The position numbers were made by a program, and so were the translations under genes. Below are positions 8,920 to 63,587 of a stretch of 64,000 bases of DNA, piece by piece (the first letter of the stretch is position 1; every line of letters begins with the position of its first letter). A model generated the notes under the pieces. That model was not told the origin of the DNA. It was given only the letters and a program-made list of their open reading frames with translations, and searched no databases. The stretch comes from an uncultured Gammaproteobacteria bacterium (GTDB taxonomy: Bacteria > Pseudomonadota > Gammaproteobacteria > UBA4575): positions 957,501-1,021,500 of the forward strand of contig OX638335.1 in NCBI GenBank assembly GCA_951812785.1, in the 5' to 3' direction.

Positions 8920-11307
8920 GTGAAATTTAGCGAAAATTGGTTGCGACAGTGGGTGAATCCAGAGGTAACAAGCGAGCAGCTTGGGCATCAATTGACCATG
9001 GCTGGTTTAGAGCTTGATGGTATTGCAGCAGCATCACCAGATTTGACAGGTGTGATTGTCGCTAAGATTGAATCAGTTGAACCTCACCCTGATGCAGATA
9101 AGTTGCAAGTATGCCAAGTCAGAGTTGGTAATAATGAAATACGGCAAATTGTATGCGGAGCAAAAAATGCACGTGCAGGATTAATTACCGCATTAGCTAC
9201 CGAAGGGGCAAAGTTGCCTGGTGATGTGAAAATAAAAGCAGCTAAATTACGTGGCGTAGAGTCATTCGGAATGCTATGTGTTTCCACCGAGTTAGGTATA
9301 GAGGAAGAGGGTGAAGGAATCCTTGAGCTAGATGATAGTTTAACTATCGGCGTTTCGCTGATGAATGCGCTAGACTTGAACGATGTCGTGTTCGATATTG
9401 ATCTAACTCCTAATCGTTCTGACTGTTTAAGCATAGAAGGTATTGCGCGAGAAGTGTCTGCGCTTTACCAATTACCAATTAACACACCAGAAATATCGAG
9501 CGTTAAAAAAGACAATGATGATCAATTTGCGATAGAAGTTGAAAGTAGAGAAGCATGCCCGCGTTATTGCGGACGCGTTCTTCGTGGTGTTAATGCTGCT
9601 GCAAATACTCCTCCATGGATGAAAGAACGTCTGCGTCGTGGTGGTATACGCTGTATTAATATTATTGTCGATATTAGCAATTACGTCATGCTAGAACTCG
9701 GTCAGCCGATGCATGCATTTGATCTTGATAAGCTTAACAAGAAAGTCGTTGTGCGCATGGCGCAAGCGGGTGAGAAGTTAGTCTTGTTAGATGGTAAAGA
9801 AATATCACTGGAAAAAGATAATCTAGTCATTGCAGATGCAAAGCAAGCATTAGCGCTTGCGGGCGTGATGGGAGGTAATGATTCTGCTGTACAGCTGGAG
9901 ACAAAAAATATATTTCTAGAATGCGCTTACTTCAATCCTCTCGCAATAGCAGGTAAAGCGCGTGACTTTGGGTTACATACAGAATCGTCGCATCGTTTTG
10001 AACGTGGTGTTGACCCTGAGTTAGCTATGCGCGCCATTGAGCGTGCTAGTGAACTTGTTAAAACTCATGCTGGTGCAGTGGTGGGTCCGGTAAATGAAAT
10101 CACTAGTAAAAAATATTTGCCGGTATGTAGTGAGATTTCACTATCGATTCCCAAAGTCACTAGAGTATTGGGTATCGAGGTTGATGTTGCTGAAGTGACT
10201 AGTATATTGGAAGGATTGCATTGTATCGTTAAGCTAGCTGGTGATGATCGTATTCTTGTGACTGCACCAAGTTATCGTTTCGATATTGACGTTGATGTTG
10301 ATTTGATTGAAGAGATTGCACGTCTTAAAGGTTACGATCAATTTCCAACACAAGCACTTTCGGCAAATGTAGCTATTTCTGGAGGCAAGAAAAAATCAGA
10401 TGCTATATTTTCTCTTCAAGAGAATTTTTCAGCATTGGGTTATAACGAGGCGGTGACGTTTAGTTTCACCGAGCAAAAGAATTGTCTGTTGTTCTGCGAT
10501 AGAGAGCCCAAGCAATTAGCAAACCCTATTTCAACTGGTCTCTCTAATATGCGTACCAGTATCTGGCCGGGTCTATGTGAAGCAGCGAGTCACAATTTAA
10601 AGCGTCAACACGCTACAGCAAAATTATTTGAAGTTGGACGCAAATACCTGATGTCTGCAAATGGCTTAGAGCAAACAGAAGTGATTGCCGGCGTAGCAGT
10701 CGGTGAGGTCAATCCTCGACAATGGGGGTTAGAGACTAGGCAGGTCGATTTTTATGATGTGAAGGGCAATCTTGATCAGTTATTTGAGAAATTGGGTTTG
10801 ACAGATAGAATTAGCTATCAAACTCATAGCCAACAAGGATTGCATCCAGGGAAAACAGCACAAATTGCTATAGATAATCAACCTATAGGTGTGATCGGTA
10901 GTTTGCACCCCAAAATATTAAAGCCATTGGGTTTGGCTAAGCGAGAAGTGGTAGTTTTCGAGCTAAAAATCGATGAGAAGCTAACGAATACGCCTATTTC
11001 GAGGTTTAAGACTTGGTCTAAGTTTCCTCAGGTGAGGCGTGACTTGTCGTTTCTACTGGCTGTGGAAACGCCTACACAGCAACTGTTGGATGAAATATTC
11101 GGTTTACAAATAAGTGAGTTGCGAGAGATTGTTATATTTTCTGTTTATCAGGGCGAAGGCGTGCCTTTTGGAGCAAAAAGCGTGTCTTTAGGCTTGATTT
11201 TACAGAACTTTTCTAGCACTCTTACAGAACAGCAAATAGAGCAAACCATGACAGACATCATTTCTCTTCTGGCAAGTAAATTTAACGTGAAGTTGAGAAG
11301 CGGCTAA
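8920..11307 (+). CDS. pheT: Phenylalanine-tRNA ligase beta subunit
   Basis: 795 residues from a GTG start that gives the canonical [15 protein letters not shown] tRNA-binding (EMAP-like) domain spans about 40-150 ([13 protein letters not shown]), B3/B4 editing and B5 domains follow, and a C-terminal anticodon-binding domain closes the protein ([14 protein letters not shown]). It pairs with PheS, whose stop lies 29 bases upstream. It is followed after 5 bases by ihfA, the standard gammaproteobacterial order. Confidence 0.98.
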
Positions 11308-11312
11308 ATACT

Positions 11313-11615
11313 ATGGCGCTGACAAAAGCAAATATGGCTGAGAATTTATTTGAGGAGCTCGGCCTTAATAAAAGAGAAGCCAAGGAATTGGTAGAAGTCT
11401 TCTTTGAAGAAGTTCGATTGGTGCTTGAGGAAGGTGAGGAAGTTAAATTATCCGGTTTCGGTAACTTTATACTTCGAGATAAGGGCCAGCGCCCTGGTCG
11501 AAATCCAAAGACTGGAGAAGAAATACCCGTAACAGCTCGACGAGTAGTAACATTTCGTCCTGGGCAAAAACTAAAATCAAGGGTAGAAGAATATGCTGGA
11601 AGCCAGCAACAATAG
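11313..11615 (+). CDS. ihfA: Integration host factor subunit alpha
   Basis: 100 residues beginning [13 protein letters not shown], with the DNA-bending arm signature [21 protein letters not shown] of the HU/IHF family and the alpha-subunit C-terminus [13 protein letters not shown]. It forms a heterodimer with IHF beta and bends DNA at specific sites. The 5-base gap after pheT indicates co-transcription. Its last 23 bases overlap the next gene. Confidence 0.97.
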
Positions 11616-11952
11616 CGAATTGCCTGCCATCCCTACCAAGCGTTATTTTACGATTGGTGAGGTGAGTGAGCTTTGTGACGTAAAACCTCATGTTCTACGT
11701 TATTGGGAACAAGAATTCCCAACACTTAAACCCGTTAAAAGACGCGGTAACCGTCGATACTATCAGCGCCACGATGTTATTCTGATTCGTCAAATCCGTA
11801 GTCTTCTTTATGGGCAAGGCTATACGATTGGCGGAGCAAGGCAGAAGTTAGCTGTGCCTGCTGAGGCTGAAAAGCCAAGTTCGGATTCTCAGCAAGCTAT
11901 CCAACAAACTCGAGCTGAGTTAGAAGACCTTCTGCAGTTTCTTAGCCGCTAG
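11593..11952 (+). CDS. MerR-family transcriptional regulator
   Basis: 119 residues. Residues 17-85 form a MerR winged helix ([20 protein letters not shown], then [20 protein letters not shown]), followed by a short tail predicted to be a coiled coil. There is no C-terminal effector domain or metal-binding cysteine set, so the ligand is unknown. This small MerR protein conventionally sits directly after ihfA in gammaproteobacteria. Its ATG lies inside ihfA behind AGGGTAGAAG, which suggests translational coupling. Confidence 0.9.
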
Positions 11953-43279: not shown

Positions 43280-43307
43280 GTAGATAATAAATCATTTGAA
43301 GAATGGT

Positions 43308-44339
43308 ATGACTTATAGTGTTCGCGAGTTAGCTCGTGAGATAGGGGTCGATATACTCGGGAACGGCGATGATGAGATTACTCGTGTTGCTGATCTTGAA
43401 GATTCAAAAAAAGGTAGCCTTTCATTTGCAGTCTCTAGTCAATATCTGGATAAATTAAAGCAAACTAAAGCTACCGCAGTCATTATCCCAGAAGGTCTTA
43501 CTTCTTATTGTAAGACCACCGCTTTGATTTCCAATAATCCATATTTGAGTTTCGCAAGAGCAGCAAAACTACTACATCCTGAAGATGCGTTCATTGCTGA
43601 AATTCATCCGTCTGCTGTGATTCATGATGATTGTGAAATTGCAGATAATGTATACATTGGTCCTAATGTAGTCATCAGTGCTAAATGTACTATAGGGAAA
43701 GATAGTTATATTGGGCCAGGAACTGTTATTACAGCGCCATCTTTTATTGGAGCTTCATCACGCTTGATTGCTAGAGTGAGTATTGTTGGACCAACGTTAA
43801 TTGGCGAGCGGGTAATTATTCATCCTGGAGCAGTAATTGCGAGTGACGGTTTTGGCTTAGCGAACAATAATGGTATGTGGGAAAAAATCCCTCAACTGGG
43901 AAGAGTTATCTTAGGAGACGATGTTGAGATTGGTGCTAATACGACTATTGACCGTGGAGCACTAAAAGACACTATTATTGAGCAAGGCGCTAAGCTTGAT
44001 AATCAAATTCAAATTGCCCACAACGTCGTTATTGGTGCACATACTGCAATTGCTGGTTGCACTGGAATTGCGGGAAGCACTGTAATTGGAAAGCACTGCG
44101 CAATAGGAGCGGCGGCAGGAATTCAAGGACATATTAGAATTGCTGATGGCGTGCAAGTTTCAGGAATGACTGCGATTCGTAAATCAATCACAAAGCCAGG
44201 TTTGTATTCGTCAGGTACAACTGCTCAAGACAATAAAAGTTGGTTGCGTAATGCGGCGAGATTTAAAGATCTTGATGCATTGTTTAAACGGGTCAATGAT
44301 ATAGTAAAGAAACTAGAAAGAATTGAGAAAGGGAAATAA
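43308..44339 (+). CDS. lpxD: UDP-3-O-(3-hydroxyacyl)glucosamine N-acyltransferase
   Basis: 343 residues from ATG 43308 (a TTG at 43296 is also in frame). An N-terminal uridine-binding domain precedes a left-handed beta-helix of hexapeptide repeats (about 100-290); the catalytic histidine region reads NQIQIAHNVVIGAHTAIAG. It adds the N-linked hydroxyacyl chain in lipid A synthesis. Order bamA-skp-lpxD-fabZ-lpxA is the standard one. Confidence 0.95.
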   Translation: MTYSVRELAREIGVDILGNGDDEITRVADLEDSKKGSLSFAVSSQYLDKLKQTKATAVIIPEGLTSYCKTTALISNNPYLSFARAAKLLHPEDAFIAEIHPSAVIHDDCEIADNVYIGPNVVISAKCTIGKDSYIGPGTVITAPSFIGASSRLIARVSIVGPTLIGERVIIHPGAVIASDGFGLANNNGMWEKIPQLGRVILGDDVEIGANTTIDRGALKDTIIEQGAKLDNQIQIAHNVVIGAHTAIAGCTGIAGSTVIGKHCAIGAAAGIQGHIRIADGVQVSGMTAIRKSITKPGLYSSGTTAQDNKSWLRNAARFKDLDALFKRVNDIVKKLERIEKGK

Positions 44340-44340
44340 T

Positions 44341-44787
44341 ATGGATGCCGTCATGTCTGTTACAGAAATAATGAAGTATCTTCCGCATCGTTACCCTTTT
44401 CTGTTACTCGACCGTGTGGTTGAATGTAAGCATGGTGATTCTATAGTTGCAATTAAAAATGTCACTATTAATGAAGCTTTTTTCCAGGGGCATTTCCCAA
44501 ATACTCCTGTATTTCCTGGGGTATTGATACTTGAAGTATTAGCTCAAGTGTCGGGTGTTCTAGTATTAAGCGATCCTAAGTTAAAGCCAGAGAATGAAAG
44601 TTTATTTTTATTTGTCGGCATAGATAATGCTCGTTTTAAGCGTCCAGTTGTCCCTGGTGATCAGTTGCGTTTGGAATCACGTTTAACAAGGATGAAAAGA
44701 AACTATGGTGTATTTGAAACTAACGCATATGTTGAAAATGAATTGGCGGCTAGTGCGGAACTAAAATGCATGTTTAAAGACTTATAA
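44341..44787 (+). CDS. fabZ: 3-Hydroxyacyl-[acyl-carrier-protein] dehydratase FabZ
   Basis: 148 residues from ATG 44341, one base after the lpxD stop and behind GAGAAAGGGA. YLPHRYPFLLLDRVVE carries the conserved histidine and GHFPNTPVFPGVLILEVLAQ the catalytic glutamate. It dehydrates hydroxyacyl-ACP in fatty acid synthesis and competes with LpxA/LpxD for their substrate. A TTG at 44323 inside lpxD is a less likely start. Confidence 0.96.
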   Translation: MDAVMSVTEIMKYLPHRYPFLLLDRVVECKHGDSIVAIKNVTINEAFFQGHFPNTPVFPGVLILEVLAQVSGVLVLSDPKLKPENESLFLFVGIDNARFKRPVVPGDQLRLESRLTRMKRNYGVFETNAYVENELAASAELKCMFKDL

Positions 44788-44789
44788 AC

Positions 44790-45599
44790 ATGAGGAATAC
44801 TCATTCATTGAGCGGAAAGGATAAAGCTGAAATTCACGTAACAGCAGTTTTAGATCCAACTGTAAGCGTGGGTGAGGGTGTCAGTATTGGGCCCTATTGC
44901 GTTATCGGCGCCCATGTAGAGATAGGGGCGAATACAACTATTGGTCCTCATGTGGTAATTCAAGGTCCTACCAAAATAGGTGAGGGAAACCAAATTTTTC
45001 AATTCTCCTCGCTTGGTGAGATACCTCAAGACAAAAAATTTTCCGGTGAAGATAGTCAGCTAGTTATTGGTAACAACAATACTATCCGAGAATTCTGCAC
45101 GATTAATAGAGGTACTAATGCTGATCAGGGTTCAACAATTATCGGTAATGATAATTGGATTATGGCGTATGTGCATATTGCACACGACTGTGTAATTGGT
45201 AATGGGGCCATCTTCTCTAATGGTGCTTCATTGGCCGGACATGTAAAAGTGGATGATTTCGCTGTTTTAGGTGGTTTTACATTAGTGCATCAATTCTGTC
45301 ATATCGGTGCGCATTCATTTTGTGGTATGGGTACTGCGCTAAATAAGGATTTGCCTCCCTATATGATGGCTTCTGGTAATTTGGCAAAGGCGTTTGGTCT
45401 AAATAAAGAAGGCTTGCGTCGCCGAGAATTTAGCGAAGATGTGATTCAGGCGCTTCATCAGGTTTATAAAGCGCTAATTATTTCAAGAAATTCTCGTGCA
45501 GAGCAATTTGAAAAAATAAGACAAATTGCTCGACAATATAGTGAAGTGCGCGAATTTGTAGAGTTCGTTGAAAATAGCCAGCGTGGAACGGTTCGTTAA
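44790..45599 (+). CDS. lpxA: UDP-N-acetylglucosamine O-acyltransferase LpxA
   Basis: 269 residues: a left-handed beta-helix (about 15-195; catalytic His in VHIAHDCVIGN) and a helical tail (LNKEGLRRREFS). It starts lipid A synthesis by acylating UDP-GlcNAc. The N-terminus carries about 12 extra residues before HVTAVLDPTV compared with E. coli. Known: LpxA enzymes from gnnA/gnnB-containing bacteria can prefer the diamino sugar UDP-GlcNAc3N; selectivity here cannot be read by eye. Its end overlaps the convergent lpxB by 4 bases. Confidence 0.96.
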   Translation: MRNTHSLSGKDKAEIHVTAVLDPTVSVGEGVSIGPYCVIGAHVEIGANTTIGPHVVIQGPTKIGEGNQIFQFSSLGEIPQDKKFSGEDSQLVIGNNNTIREFCTINRGTNADQGSTIIGNDNWIMAYVHIAHDCVIGNGAIFSNGASLAGHVKVDDFAVLGGFTLVHQFCHIGAHSFCGMGTALNKDLPPYMMASGNLAKAFGLNKEGLRRREFSEDVIQALHQVYKALIISRNSRAEQFEKIRQIARQYSEVREFVEFVENSQRGTVR

Positions 45600-46711
45600 T
45601 TTTGATTGGCTAATGCTATTGCTTGCTGGGCAAGTTCGGTAGAGTTAATTCCTGAGCTTAACTTGCTGTGAATTTCTTCGCGGTTTTTGAGCATCTTTTC
45701 ATTGATCTGTTTATCGTTAATCAGCTTAACTAAAGAGTTGAATAGGGTGTCTGCGTTTGCATCATCTTGAATTAGCTCCGTGTATGCGCGCCTATTTAAA
45801 ATAATATTTGCTAAGCAGATGTGTTTAACATTTACCATGTGAGCAAATAATTTATAAGTGATCGGTGATATCTTATATACCACTACCATGGCTTTGCCCA
45901 TTAAAGCCGTTTGAAGTGTGGCTGTTCCTGAGGCAATGGCGAGTACTTGGCATTGTTTAATGGAGGCGTAAAAATTGCCCTTTTGATAGCTAATGGGTAA
46001 ATTGTATTTGTTGTAACTTTTGAGGTCGTTAATGTTTGTGCTGGGTGCTACTGGCAATATAAATTTAATCTTAGGATTTTGCTTTAGTAGTCCTTGAGCA
46101 GCGTCTATCATCATAGGCAATAACTTTTTGATTTCATTTTTGCGGCTGCCTGGAAGTAGTCCTATAGTTGTTACTTGATTTGGCGTATTGTGTTTAGAGT
46201 TGTAAGTGGCATCAATGTCATCTAATAATGGATGGCGTACAAGGCACGCAGGGATGTTTTCTTTTTTATAAAAATCCAATTCAAATGGGAATAATACTGC
46301 CATTAGATCTACCCACTTCTTGATTTTTTTTACTCTTCCTATGCGCCATGCCCATACTTGTGGGCTGACATAAAACATTACTTTTATGCCTAAGTTTTTC
46401 GCATAGGCAGCTAGTTTTAAATTGAACTCGGGATAATCAATGAGGATGAGTAATTCTGGTTTCTTGTCTCTGATGTGCTTTTTGAGTATAGATAATATGC
46501 TGCGTAGGCGTGGATAATGCCTTAATATTTCTGCGATACCGACGACAGATGTTTCACTGACATCAAACAGAGTCTGTACGCCAGCGTTACGCATAGATTG
46601 TCCACCTATGCCGGATATTGTTAACTGTTTATCAAGGTTATTTAATGCGTTTGCAAGTTTTCCACCAAGCAAATCGCCTGATACTTCTCCAGCAACTATG
46701 ACAATATCCAT
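45596..46711 (-). CDS. lpxB: Lipid-A-disaccharide synthase
   Basis: 371 residues of the GT19 family: VAGEVSGDLLGGKLANAL at the N-terminus, SVVGIAEILRHYPR, YVSPQVWAWRIGRVKKI and LLPGSRKNEIKKLLP. It joins UDP-diacyl-GlcN and lipid X at the inner membrane. Unlike in enterobacteria, it faces lpxA on the opposite strand and is the last gene of a gnnA-gnnB-lpxB series, 12 bases after gnnB. Confidence 0.96.
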   Translation of the reverse strand: MDIVIVAGEVSGDLLGGKLANALNNLDKQLTISGIGGQSMRNAGVQTLFDVSETSVVGIAEILRHYPRLRSILSILKKHIRDKKPELLILIDYPEFNLKLAAYAKNLGIKVMFYVSPQVWAWRIGRVKKIKKWVDLMAVLFPFELDFYKKENIPACLVRHPLLDDIDATYNSKHNTPNQVTTIGLLPGSRKNEIKKLLPMMIDAAQGLLKQNPKIKFILPVAPSTNINDLKSYNKYNLPISYQKGNFYASIKQCQVLAIASGTATLQTALMGKAMVVVYKISPITYKLFAHMVNVKHICLANIILNRRAYTELIQDDANADTLFNSLVKLINDKQINEKMLKNREEIHSKLSSGINSTELAQQAIALANQN

Positions 46712-46723
46712 TAGCTGTGTTTG

Positions 46724-47718
46724 CTATCCAAGCTGTTGCTGAAACACCCTAATAACTCTCTCAATCTGTTCGGATGAAAGCTCGGGATACATAGGTAGAG
46801 AGAGGCAGTTTGAAGATACTTTCTCGGTAATAGGTAATGACGCCTCAGGCTCATTATTTGTGAAAGCAACTTGCTGGTGTAAGCCTTTGGGGTAATAAAT
46901 TGCAGAAGCAATATTCTGTTCGCTGAGTGCCGCGTGTATTTTATCTCTGCGAGAGTCTTGAATTGTATATTGATGATATACATGAGTGCTGTCGGGAGAT
47001 TCATTCGGTGTGGTAATGCCTAGTTCTGTTAATGCTTTTGTGTATTTGCAAGCATTGGTATGCCTTTGTTGATTATATTTATCAATGCGTTTTAACTTTA
47101 TGCGTAAGATCTCTGCTTGCAGCTCATCAAGACGGCTATTGTAACCAACAATTGTATGTTCGTATCTTATTGGGCTGCCATGGTTGCGTAATAATTTTAA
47201 TGTTTCAGCAAGTTTGTTATCAGCAGTGCTGATCATGCCACCATCACCATAACAGCCAAGGTTCTTGCTTGGGAAAAAACTAAAGCAGCTAATGTCCCAG
47301 TTTTTTTGCCTTTATAACTCGTGCCAAATGATTGGGCACAATCTTCTACTAAAAATATGCTTTTGCCTTTAATGATAGTTTTTATTTCATCAATATCAGC
47401 AGTTAACCCGAATAAATGGACCGCAATAATCGCACGTGTTTTTTCGGAGATAGCGTTCTTGATGCATGCAGGATCTACATTTAATGTAATTGGATCTATA
47501 TCGGCAAATACTGGTGTTGCACCTACATAACAAATTGCTTCGGCTGTAGCAGCAAAAGTGAATGAAGGACAAATCACTTCATCTTCTAATGCATGAACAT
47601 TAGGTCCCATTATGAAAGCGGTATTTTCTAGTGCGTAGTTAACAGCGCTTTGAATTTCATTTTTTAGAGATTGATATTGCTGGCGCAAATCAACCATGGG
47701 GATAGGTGTCGGATTCAT
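46724..47718 (-). pseudogene. gnnB: GnnB-type DegT/DnrJ aminotransferase, broken
   Basis: The N-terminal segment starts MNPTPIPMVDLRQQYQSLK. After HALED it jumps to EVICPSFTFAATAEAI, losing about 35-40 residues that in the family carry the SGTDAL phosphate-binding motif. The frame is then lost after KKTGTLA, where 10 bases are missing; the next frame resumes at CFSFFPSKNLG (with the PLP lysine) and runs to the end (NSRLDELQAEILRIKLKRID, HVYHQYTI). Neither half can be active. GnnB would transaminate the 3-keto sugar made by GnnA. Context (gnnA upstream, lpxB downstream) supports the identity; the symbol is inferred. Confidence 0.75.
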
Positions 47719-47723
47719 GTTAA

Positions 47724-48653
47724 TTACTTAGCGTTATGTAGTTGAATAGTGTTAGCTATTTGATTGGCTGTGTGTAGTGCGCGCAAGCCATCTGTGCCAG
47801 AAACAAGTGGTTGAATATTGTTATGGATACAGTCCAAGAAGTGAGTGATCTCAGTTAACAGTGCATCGGACTTTTCAAAGTTAAAACTTTGTACGTTGAT
47901 TTCACTTTGCTTTCGCGTATAAATTTTCAATTCATGATTTCCCAGGTCTGCAGAAAAATAAGCATTACCTTGGAATAAGCGAAGTTTACGTTCGCTGTTG
48001 GTGCTGACGCGGCTGGCAGTGACATTGGCAACACAGTCATTAGTGAATGTGATGCGAGCGTTAGCGATATCGATATCATCAGACAGTACGCTCATGCCTG
48101 ATGCTTGTATTGATTCAATGTCAGATTGAACAATACTGAGAATAATGTCGATATCGTGAATCATTAAATCAAGGACAACATTGACGTCGGTACCGCGTGT
48201 TTTGAATGGGGATAGACGTTGTGATTCGATGAATTTAGGTTGTTGCATATACTCATCCATGGCGAGCACAGTGGGGTTGAATCTTTCGATATGACCAATT
48301 TGTAGAATTCTATGGTTTTCTTCGGCGATCTTAATTAGCTCTTCTGCCTGCCCAGTTGTCGAGGTCATGGGCTTTTCTAGCAGCACATGCTTGCCACGCG
48401 CCAAAAATTGTTTGGCTATTTCATAGTGGGAGGGAGTAGAAGTGACGATACTAACAGCATCGACATCATTAATTAATGTTTGAAAATCTGTGCTTGCTTT
48501 TGCATCTGGATACAAACTAGCCATTTCTTCAACGGTGGAAGGGTCACTATCTATCAGACCTATTAATCGGCAGTTATTTAAAGCCCGATACTTTTGCGCA
48601 TGAAATCTACCCAGATACCCCGCACCAATTACCGCTATATTTACAATTCCCAT
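47724..48653 (-). CDS. gnnA: GnnA-type Gfo/Idh/MocA oxidoreductase
   Basis: 309 residues. The NAD-binding GAGYLGRFHA is at 10-19, the family motif LLEKPM near 90-95 and DLMIHDIDIIL near 160. In Acidithiobacillus ferrooxidans GnnA oxidises UDP-GlcNAc at C3, GnnB then transaminates, and both genes lie between lpxA and lpxB. The same neighbours here support the call, but other sugar oxidoreductases share the fold. The gene is intact although its partner gnnB, 5 bases downstream, is broken. It is divergent from rnhB. Confidence 0.75.
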   Translation of the reverse strand: MGIVNIAVIGAGYLGRFHAQKYRALNNCRLIGLIDSDPSTVEEMASLYPDAKASTDFQTLINDVDAVSIVTSTPSHYEIAKQFLARGKHVLLEKPMTSTTGQAEELIKIAEENHRILQIGHIERFNPTVLAMDEYMQQPKFIESQRLSPFKTRGTDVNVVLDLMIHDIDIILSIVQSDIESIQASGMSVLSDDIDIANARITFTNDCVANVTASRVSTNSERKLRLFQGNAYFSADLGNHELKIYTRKQSEINVQSFNFEKSDALLTEITHFLDCIHNNIQPLVSGTDGLRALHTANQIANTIQLHNAK

Positions 48654-48774
48654 TCAATAAAAAATCTGTATTATAAAAACTACGCAGTATACGTCCTCTA
48701 GCCTAAATATGGGCATCATTGAGTAAAATAGGCACTTGATTAAAAAGCACTCTAACGTGGTTGAATTCACTGAT

Positions 48775-49350
48775 ATGCAGGTGAATATCAATACTTACGC
48801 AGGTATTGACGAAGTTGGGCGTGGGCCACTTGCCGGACCAGTTGTGGCTGCGGCAGTGGTGCTTGGAGATGCTTATGAATGGGTTGGTCTTAAAAACTCA
48901 AATATGTTAACGCCTAAACGACGTGAAGCCTGCGCAATTGAGATTAGGCAAAATGCATTGGCATGGTCCATTGGTCGCTGTGAAGCTGAAGAAATTGATC
49001 AATACAATATTTTTAATGCTAGTTTGCTGGCGATGCGGCGAGCATTTGAAGGCTTGACTTTGGGTGCTGAATTAGCATTTGTTGATGGTAAATATAGCCC
49101 CGAGCTATCTGTGCGGTCTTATGCCGTTATTAAGGGTGACCAACATGTGCCTGCAATTAGTGCAGCTTCTATCTTGGCTAAAGTAACAAGAGATTTGGAA
49201 ATGTGTGAGTTGGATAAGTCTTATCCTAATTATGGGTTTGCAAAACATAAAGGCTATCCTACGGCCTATCATATGGATGCACTTAAACAGCATGGTCCTT
49301 GTAGTCACCATCGTCGAAGTTTTAAGCCGGTTGCTAATGTATTAAAATGA
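48775..49350 (+). CDS. rnhB: Ribonuclease HII
   Basis: 191 residues from ATG 48775. YAGIDEVGRGPLAGPVVAAAV carries the catalytic Asp-Glu pair; FVDGKYSP, GDQHVPAISAASILAKVTRD and PNYGFAKHKGYPT follow. It cuts RNA in DNA hybrids and single ribonucleotides. In-frame TTG 48736 or GTG 48757 would lengthen it by 13 or 6 residues, and no ribosome binding site decides the matter. The stop overlaps the dnaE start (ATGA), the usual rnhB-dnaE coupling. Confidence 0.93.
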   Translation: MQVNINTYAGIDEVGRGPLAGPVVAAAVVLGDAYEWVGLKNSNMLTPKRREACAIEIRQNALAWSIGRCEAEEIDQYNIFNASLLAMRRAFEGLTLGAELAFVDGKYSPELSVRSYAVIKGDQHVPAISAASILAKVTRDLEMCELDKSYPNYGFAKHKGYPTAYHMDALKQHGPCSHHRRSFKPVANVLK

Positions 49351-62516: not shown

Positions 62517-63168
62517 GACAGCCACTGAGGCTTGTTCTGCTGCTGTTCTTATTGATAATGAGGTGGTGGAACGTTTTGAGGTCGCACCGCGCAAGCATAA
62601 CGAGCTAATTCTGCCTATGTGCGGAGCCGTGCTGGCTGATGCGGGAGTATCCGTTAACCAATTAGATGGTATCGCGTTTGGCTGTGGTCCAGGTGCTTTT
62701 ACCGGCATTCGTATTGCTGCCAGTGTCACTCAAGGGATAGCCTTAGCACATGACTTGCCTGTCGCGAGTATCTCCACGTTAGCTAATCTAGCTTACCAGG
62801 CCGACGTAAATGCTAATGAATTGGTTATGCCTGCCATTGATGCTCGTATGGAAGAAGTGTATTGGGCAATATATAGAAAGACTTTAGATAAAGTAGAACT
62901 TATAGGCGAAGAAAAAGTGCAGTTACCTGTTGATGTTGGCATTGAAGAATATGTTTCATGCGGGTTGGGTACGGGTTGGGGAGCCTATAGAGACATATTG
63001 CAGCAGCGGTTAGTTGCAAGTACAGAAAATGTTATCGAAGATGCTCTGCCGCATGCGCAAGTTACAGTGCGATTAGCTAAGCATAAATACCTTGATCAGC
63101 AAATGGTAGATGCAATGAATGCATTACCAGTATATTTGCGCAATCAAGTGATACATAAAAAAAGGTGA
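62491..63168 (+). CDS. tsaB: tRNA t6A biosynthesis protein TsaB
   Basis: 225 residues of the ASKHA fold: LLGIETATEACSAAVL, the two-histidine-less RKHNELILPM, and FGCGPGAFTGIRIAASVTQG. TsaB partners TsaD and TsaE in threonylcarbamoyl addition at A37 of ANN-decoding tRNAs. It overlaps yoaA at its start and the next gene at its end. Confidence 0.95.
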   Translation: MTVKLLGIETATEACSAAVLIDNEVVERFEVAPRKHNELILPMCGAVLADAGVSVNQLDGIAFGCGPGAFTGIRIAASVTQGIALAHDLPVASISTLANLAYQADVNANELVMPAIDARMEEVYWAIYRKTLDKVELIGEEKVQLPVDVGIEEYVSCGLGTGWGAYRDILQQRLVASTENVIEDALPHAQVTVRLAKHKYLDQQMVDAMNALPVYLRNQVIHKKR

Positions 63169-63587
63169 GTATCCCTCCATTTCATTTGGCATGTCCTATC
63201 ACTAATCTTGCTGCTGTACGTGAGTTTTATGTGTCAGTATTAAAGTGTGAAATCGGTAGAGAAAGTCAACGTTGGATTGATTTTAATTTTTTTGGGCATC
63301 AGATCACAGCACATTTGGATGAAACTGAAGTGCAACAATCAGCTCGAAATCAAGTTGATAATAAAGCTATTCCTACCAGACACTTTGGTGTGATGTTGGA
63401 CTAGGGTGATTGGGCTGCCATGGTTGCATGCATCAAGTTGAACAATATTGCGTTTTACGTGGAACCCTATACGCGTTTTGCTGGAGAAGTAGGTGAACAG
63501 AGGACCTTCTTTATTCAAGGCCCTAGTGGTAATTTTTTAGAATTTAAATGTTTTCAAGATAAGTCTTATATATTTAAAGCAGAGTGA
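63165..63587 (+). pseudogene. VOC-family (glyoxalase-like) protein with an in-frame stop
   Basis: From GTG 63165 (overlapping the tsaB stop) the frame reads FHLACPITNLAAVREFYV to HFGVMLD, then TAG at 63402-63404. The same frame continues GDWAAMVACIKL, VEPYTRFAGEVGEQRTFFIQ and GPSGNFLEFKCF to TGA at 63585-63587. Together these make a complete VOC protein of about 140 residues; only the single TAG, probably from TGG, breaks it. Family members are metal-dependent dioxygenases or glyoxalases; the function here is not known. A sequencing error or readthrough is possible. Confidence 0.8.

Follow-up and report, generated by a model that had tools for sequence, protein, structure and literature searches.

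How lipid A is made in a bacterium that retains gnnA and the lpx genes but carries a broken gnnB is the question raised by the locus described here. Makers of GlcN3N and of GlcN lipid A are commonly told apart by the presence of gnnA and gnnB. In Acidithiobacillus ferrooxidans, GnnA and GnnB convert UDP-GlcNAc to UDP-GlcNAc3N, and the window analysed here (64,000 nucleotides, G000:C1:957501-1021500, of a genome assembled as one 2.16-Mb contig with a completeness score of 100%) likewise carries genes for an oxidoreductase and a DegT aminotransferase beside lpxA and lpxB, with an intact GnnA. Unlike in A. ferrooxidans, gnnB of the window is a pseudogene, and gnnA, gnnB, and lpxB face lpxA (Table 1). 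The gene order is lpxD, fabZ, and lpxA on the plus strand, lpxB, gnnB, and gnnA on the minus strand, and then rnhB and dnaE on the plus strand. LpxA, LpxB, one Gfo/Idh/MocA oxidoreductase, and two DegT fragments were matched by Pfam and NCBIfam. GnnA has the Gfo/Idh/MocA fold by sequence (PF01408, 101 bits against a cut-off of 24) and matches the intact orthologue of the same-genus genome G002 at 85%; its best NCBIfam match is UDP-N-acetylglucosamine 3-dehydrogenase (209 bits, below that model's archaeal cut-off of 450), and it is predicted to oxidise C3 of UDP-GlcNAc. The order gnnA-gnnB-lpxB convergent with lpxA was found family-wide, with gnnB intact in the relatives, and is the ancestral layout in the family; the linkage of gnnA to gnnB and the lpx genes is kept across the family and also in other gammaproteobacteria. 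The preliminary description had reported intact gnnA and lpxB with a broken gnnB, convergent with lpxA, and the reading frames, the Pfam/NCBIfam matches, and the relatives agree with it; the relatives keep an intact gnnB at this place, and its view that GnnA and GnnB both belonged to the lpx locus of this lineage is also supported.

Table 1. Features of the lpx-gnn locus and the WbpE-type gene (window positions unless a contig is named)
Feature	Position	Strand	Basis or remark
lpxD, intact	43296..44339	+	ORF and orthologue comparison
fabZ, intact	44323..44787	+	ORF and orthologue comparison
lpxA, intact, convergent with lpxB, 4-nt end overlap	44790..45599	+	Pfam/NCBIfam
lpxB, intact	45596..46711	-	NCBIfam, 285 bits against cut-off 190
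gnnB pseudogene, DegT aminotransferase, 2 deletions	46724..47718	-	ORFs 47233-47718 and 46724-47236
Scar, 10-nt deletion between ACATTAG direct repeats	about 47280..47298	-	frameshift before catalytic lysine
Scar of an in-frame loss of 102 nt, between direct repeats of the GATGAAGT type	about 47567..47589	-	PLP-phosphate loop gone
gnnA, UDP-GlcNAc 3-dehydrogenase-like (Gfo/Idh/MocA), intact, 309 aa	47724..48653	-	Pfam/NCBIfam; G002 orthologue
rnhB, divergent from gnnA, flanks block	48736..49350	+	
WbpE/WlbC-type aminotransferase, outside window	G000:C1:1391485-1392576 (= L199:5486-6577)		43% identical to GnnB; 364 bits to P. aeruginosa WbpE

The lesions were defined against the intact gnnB of G002 (368 aa); gnnB is also intact in the same-genus G004 and the same-family G008. 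At the first site, the GA(C/T)GAAGT repeats (GATGAAGT-type) of G002 are spaced exactly 102 nt apart, and the deletion in the window takes out SSGTDALHLAL, the PLP-phosphate loop. At the second site, the nearest relative (G003) reads ACATTAGGCGACATTAG and has both ACATTAG copies, 10 nt apart, while a single copy is left in the window. Because the 10-nt deletion shifts the frame before FFPSKN, the Schiff-base lysine is lost. With the loop deleted and this lysine out of frame, the full DegT fold is not present; to judge from these lesions, a functional aminotransferase from the window gnnB is impossible and the death of the gene is near certain. A split yet working gnnB, with reading frames overlapping at ATGA, was ruled out by the lysine segment being out of frame. 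Comparison with G002 and G003 upheld both deletions and placed them at direct repeats. Thus, of the two large lesions reported earlier, both exist but only the first is large, the second being a 10-nt frameshift.

Could an artefact of sequencing or assembly, or a change confined to a single clone, account for the scars while gnnB is otherwise intact in the species? The gnnB remnants are free of substitution decay, as such an origin would predict, but each scar matches exactly a deletion between two copies of a direct repeat, a loss of 102 nt is not a homopolymer-type error, and the window holds no other real-looking split gene, which together make this explanation highly improbable. Compared with G002, gnnB was the only window gene split between frames besides the short ORF 11306-11647, which looks like a non-coding shadow. 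In-frame stops in the other checked window orthologues lay near the 5' end, ahead of a plausible start, with the exception of a 166-codon match at 63087-63584, which also has a stop at codon 106.

In the comparison of G000 with G003, the remaining codons of gnnB gave a dN/dS of 0.063, as against 0.056 for lpxA and 0.059 for lpxB; synonymous sites were near saturation in the other comparisons, which limits codon-rate tests. At family-invariant positions, the gnnB remnants showed 1 deviation at 106 sites, GnnA 0 at 108, and LpxB 0 at 91, and the single deviation of LpxA, K233R, lies in its C-terminal part, with none near the active site. The loss of gnnB was recent, given that the nearest relatives still have the gene and that what is left of it has not been degraded by substitutions. 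The contig of G003 begins inside gnnB, so this genome cannot be used for gnnA or the first lesion; a loss of gnnA in G003 was ruled out because rnhB is missing too, indicating a gap. In sum, gnnB is a recent pseudogene in a gnnA-(gnnB)-lpxB/lpxA locus that is otherwise intact, constrained, and inherited from a gnnB-keeping family.

In another same-genus genome (G001, L328:7142-8292) and three genomes of genus g2 (L329, L330, and L331), lpxD, lpxA, lpxB, gnnB, and gnnA are gone from the syntenic locus, while bamA-like, ompH-like, fabZ, rnhB, and dnaE genes are retained in order, fabZ adjoining rnhB. Neither lpxA nor lpxB was found elsewhere in these four draft genomes, which are 77-91% complete, and, as far as gene content indicates, the bacteria concerned may have no lipid A. 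This loss in relatives makes it a live but minor rival explanation that the gnnB lesion is an early step of decay towards wholesale lipid A loss in a family that sheds lipid A genes. The chance of this is slim, however, as lpxD, fabZ, lpxA, and lpxB of the window are intact and constrained, and the genome has sugar-transfer and O-unit-type genes.

Besides gnnB, the genome carries two full DegT enzymes of the same subfamily. A search for another GnnB, as proposed in the preliminary description, did find a full enzyme 43% identical to GnnB, but it belongs to the WbpE clade: in the aminotransferase tree, the GnnB and WbpE types formed separate clades (100/100). The second enzyme (1399179-1400219, 35% to GnnB), encoded in a sugar cluster next to E1-dehydrogenase genes, is distant from GnnB as well as from WbpE and was ruled out as a substitute. 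The WbpE-type gene ends a wlbA-wlbB-wlbC cluster amid sugar genes, with wlbA and wlbB adjoining, and its product has intact active-site motifs (FFPAKPLG, SSGTDAL, and VDGAQSFG). It resembles WbpE/WlbC, the UDP-3-keto-GlcNAcA 3-aminotransferase (PDB 3nu7), in the motifs FFPxKPLG and PTAVHYP and in its wlbA-wlbB neighbours; it differs in its long branch, in the added use on the GnnA product proposed below, and in that no wbpA was seen in the cluster, visual inspection of the ORFs up to about 15 kb away having shown none like WbpA. Its branch was the longest in the tree (1.26) and its start codon is TTG, which could mean altered specificity. The presumed C6-pocket residues do not separate specificities, since PTAVHYP occurs in WbpE-types with and without Wlb genes. 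The WbpE-type enzyme was absent from 15/15 other family members searched; within the family (f1), it and the broken gnnB occur only in this genome.

Based on these results, we consider it slightly more probable than the opposite that the GnnB step, from UDP-3-keto-GlcNAc to UDP-GlcNAc3N, is now performed by this WbpE/WlbC-type enzyme, and that GlcN3N may persist in the lipid A. The enzyme's own substrate, UDP-3-keto-GlcNAcA, differs from UDP-3-keto-GlcNAc only at C6, and gnnB would have decayed once the WbpE-type enzyme could supply the step. GnnA would then still have a partner, and gnnB would be redundant. No report of WbpE-type activity on UDP-3-keto-GlcNAc was found in the literature searched.

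The co-occurrence of these genes was surveyed in 323 gammaproteobacterial genomes with GnnA, the WbpE-type enzyme, and GnnB as queries; the three result tables were joined by hand, and the aminotransferase type was that of whichever query scored higher at the same place. gnnA was present in 115 of the 323 genomes, 88 with and 27 without a GnnB-type enzyme. A WbpE-type enzyme was found in 22 of these 27 (1 more was borderline and 4 had neither), in only 3 of the 88, and in about 19 of the 208 genomes without gnnA. Fisher's test of 22/27 against 3/88 gave p = 7e-16 (3e-15 minus the window genome), the genomes not being independent. The 22 genomes come from 15 families; swaps are seen within each of the families f1, f10, f78, and f127. 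Where gnnA was lpx-linked, GnnB was lacking, and a WbpE-type enzyme was present, 17/20 genomes had no WlbA, including five Legionella genomes. As these would have no WlbA-made substrate, the WbpE-type enzyme probably does GnnB's job there, most simply by aminating the GnnA product.

A scan for GnnA relatives revealed gnnA adjoining lpxB without gnnB in Legionella, HTCC5015, and others; the best aminotransferase was of the WbpE type in six Legionella-type genomes, HTCC5015, and the genome of locus L122, and at L161 the gene adjoining gnnA is itself of this type. Like the window, Legionella, in which GlcN3N lipid A occurs, has gnnA adjoining lpxB, a gnnB that is absent or not functional, and a WbpE-type enzyme elsewhere, whereas WlbA is missing in 5/6 genomes and the gnnA-lpxB gap holds no gnnB remnant. 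L. pneumophila is among the listed makers of GlcN3N lipid A (PMC8036547), and the Legionella genomes searched are of other species. HTCC5015 shows the same pattern as the window genome, namely gnnA-lpxB without gnnB and with wlbABC present. These observations suggest that the same swap appears repeated in gammaproteobacteria, Legionella included.

Genomes that keep gnnA but yielded no aminotransferase of the GnnB or the WbpE type at the thresholds used are those of L114, L124, L318 (G192), L316 (G140), L317 (G158), and L320 (G353); in several of these genomes gnnA lies away from lpx genes, while in G192 it is beside lpxB and in G140 beside an LpxA-like gene. In Desulfobacterota-type loci (L217-L220, L227, L229, and L230), gnnA-lpxB has no adjacent gnnB, and since a DegT enzyme elsewhere is nearer to GnnB than to WbpE, gnnB seems relocated, not replaced. 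A truncated gnnB in G226 was ruled out, being an N-filled scaffold gap.

The preliminary description had proposed that the lineage reverted, or is reverting, to GlcN lipid A. According to this explanation, no UDP-GlcNAc3N is made, one or both LpxA copies acylate UDP-GlcNAc, and gnnA is an undecayed relic. The inability of the window gnnB to function agrees with it, as does a second LpxA (G000:C1:844168-844923, L198:4169-4924; 252 aa, 277 bits against the LpxA cut-off of 226), which occurs in most of the family. E. coli LpxA reportedly accepts both sugars, a finding attributed to Sweet et al. in 2004. Two lpxA genes likewise occur in C. canimorsus, which has a GlcN3N-GlcN hybrid backbone (PMC3342949). 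The statements on C. jejuni gnnA/gnnB mutants in PMC8036547 describe viable cells with altered lipid A properties. These mutants resemble the window in being viable after loss of gnnB function; they are, however, laboratory mutants for which no WbpE-type substitute was considered. On the other side, the WbpE-type enzyme co-occurs with gnnB loss far above baseline and is present in this genome, and LpxA has no compensating change at family-invariant positions save K233R. Reversion is therefore regarded as unlikely, though far from negligible, and is not the leading view; nor is the associated idea that GnnA is useless, given a candidate partner and its undeviating invariant sites.

Replacement by the WbpE-type enzyme is favoured over reversion because the window shares the pattern of gnnA and a WbpE-type enzyme without GnnB (with WlbA present, as in HTCC5015), and the invariant-site comparison gave no sign of adaptation of LpxA and GnnA to GlcN. 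Against replacement, the WbpE-type enzyme here is part of a wlbABC cluster, where it has a function of its own, and the very recent loss of gnnB means that intact GnnA and LpxA may reflect mere inertia. Its long branch and TTG start, the failure to see WbpA up to about 15 kb away, and the two genomes G192 and G140, in which gnnA lies beside lpx genes and both aminotransferase types are missing at the thresholds used, also count against replacement. There is about an even chance that WbpE-types offer gammaproteobacteria, Legionella included, a general route to GlcN3N lipid A in place of GnnB, with the window representing a swap in progress in which one enzyme, encoded in an LPS sugar cluster, would serve both pathways.

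GlcN3N lipid A, with its amide-linked chains, has a reported role in TLR4 sensing and antimicrobial-peptide resistance (PMC8036547). If WbpE-types commonly replace GnnB, many genomes, Legionella included, would have been misread, and the missing lipid A aminotransferase of Legionella would be a single testable gene. For the family of the window, the loss of lpx genes in its relatives may add a natural gradient within one family, ranging from complete lipid A to its absence.
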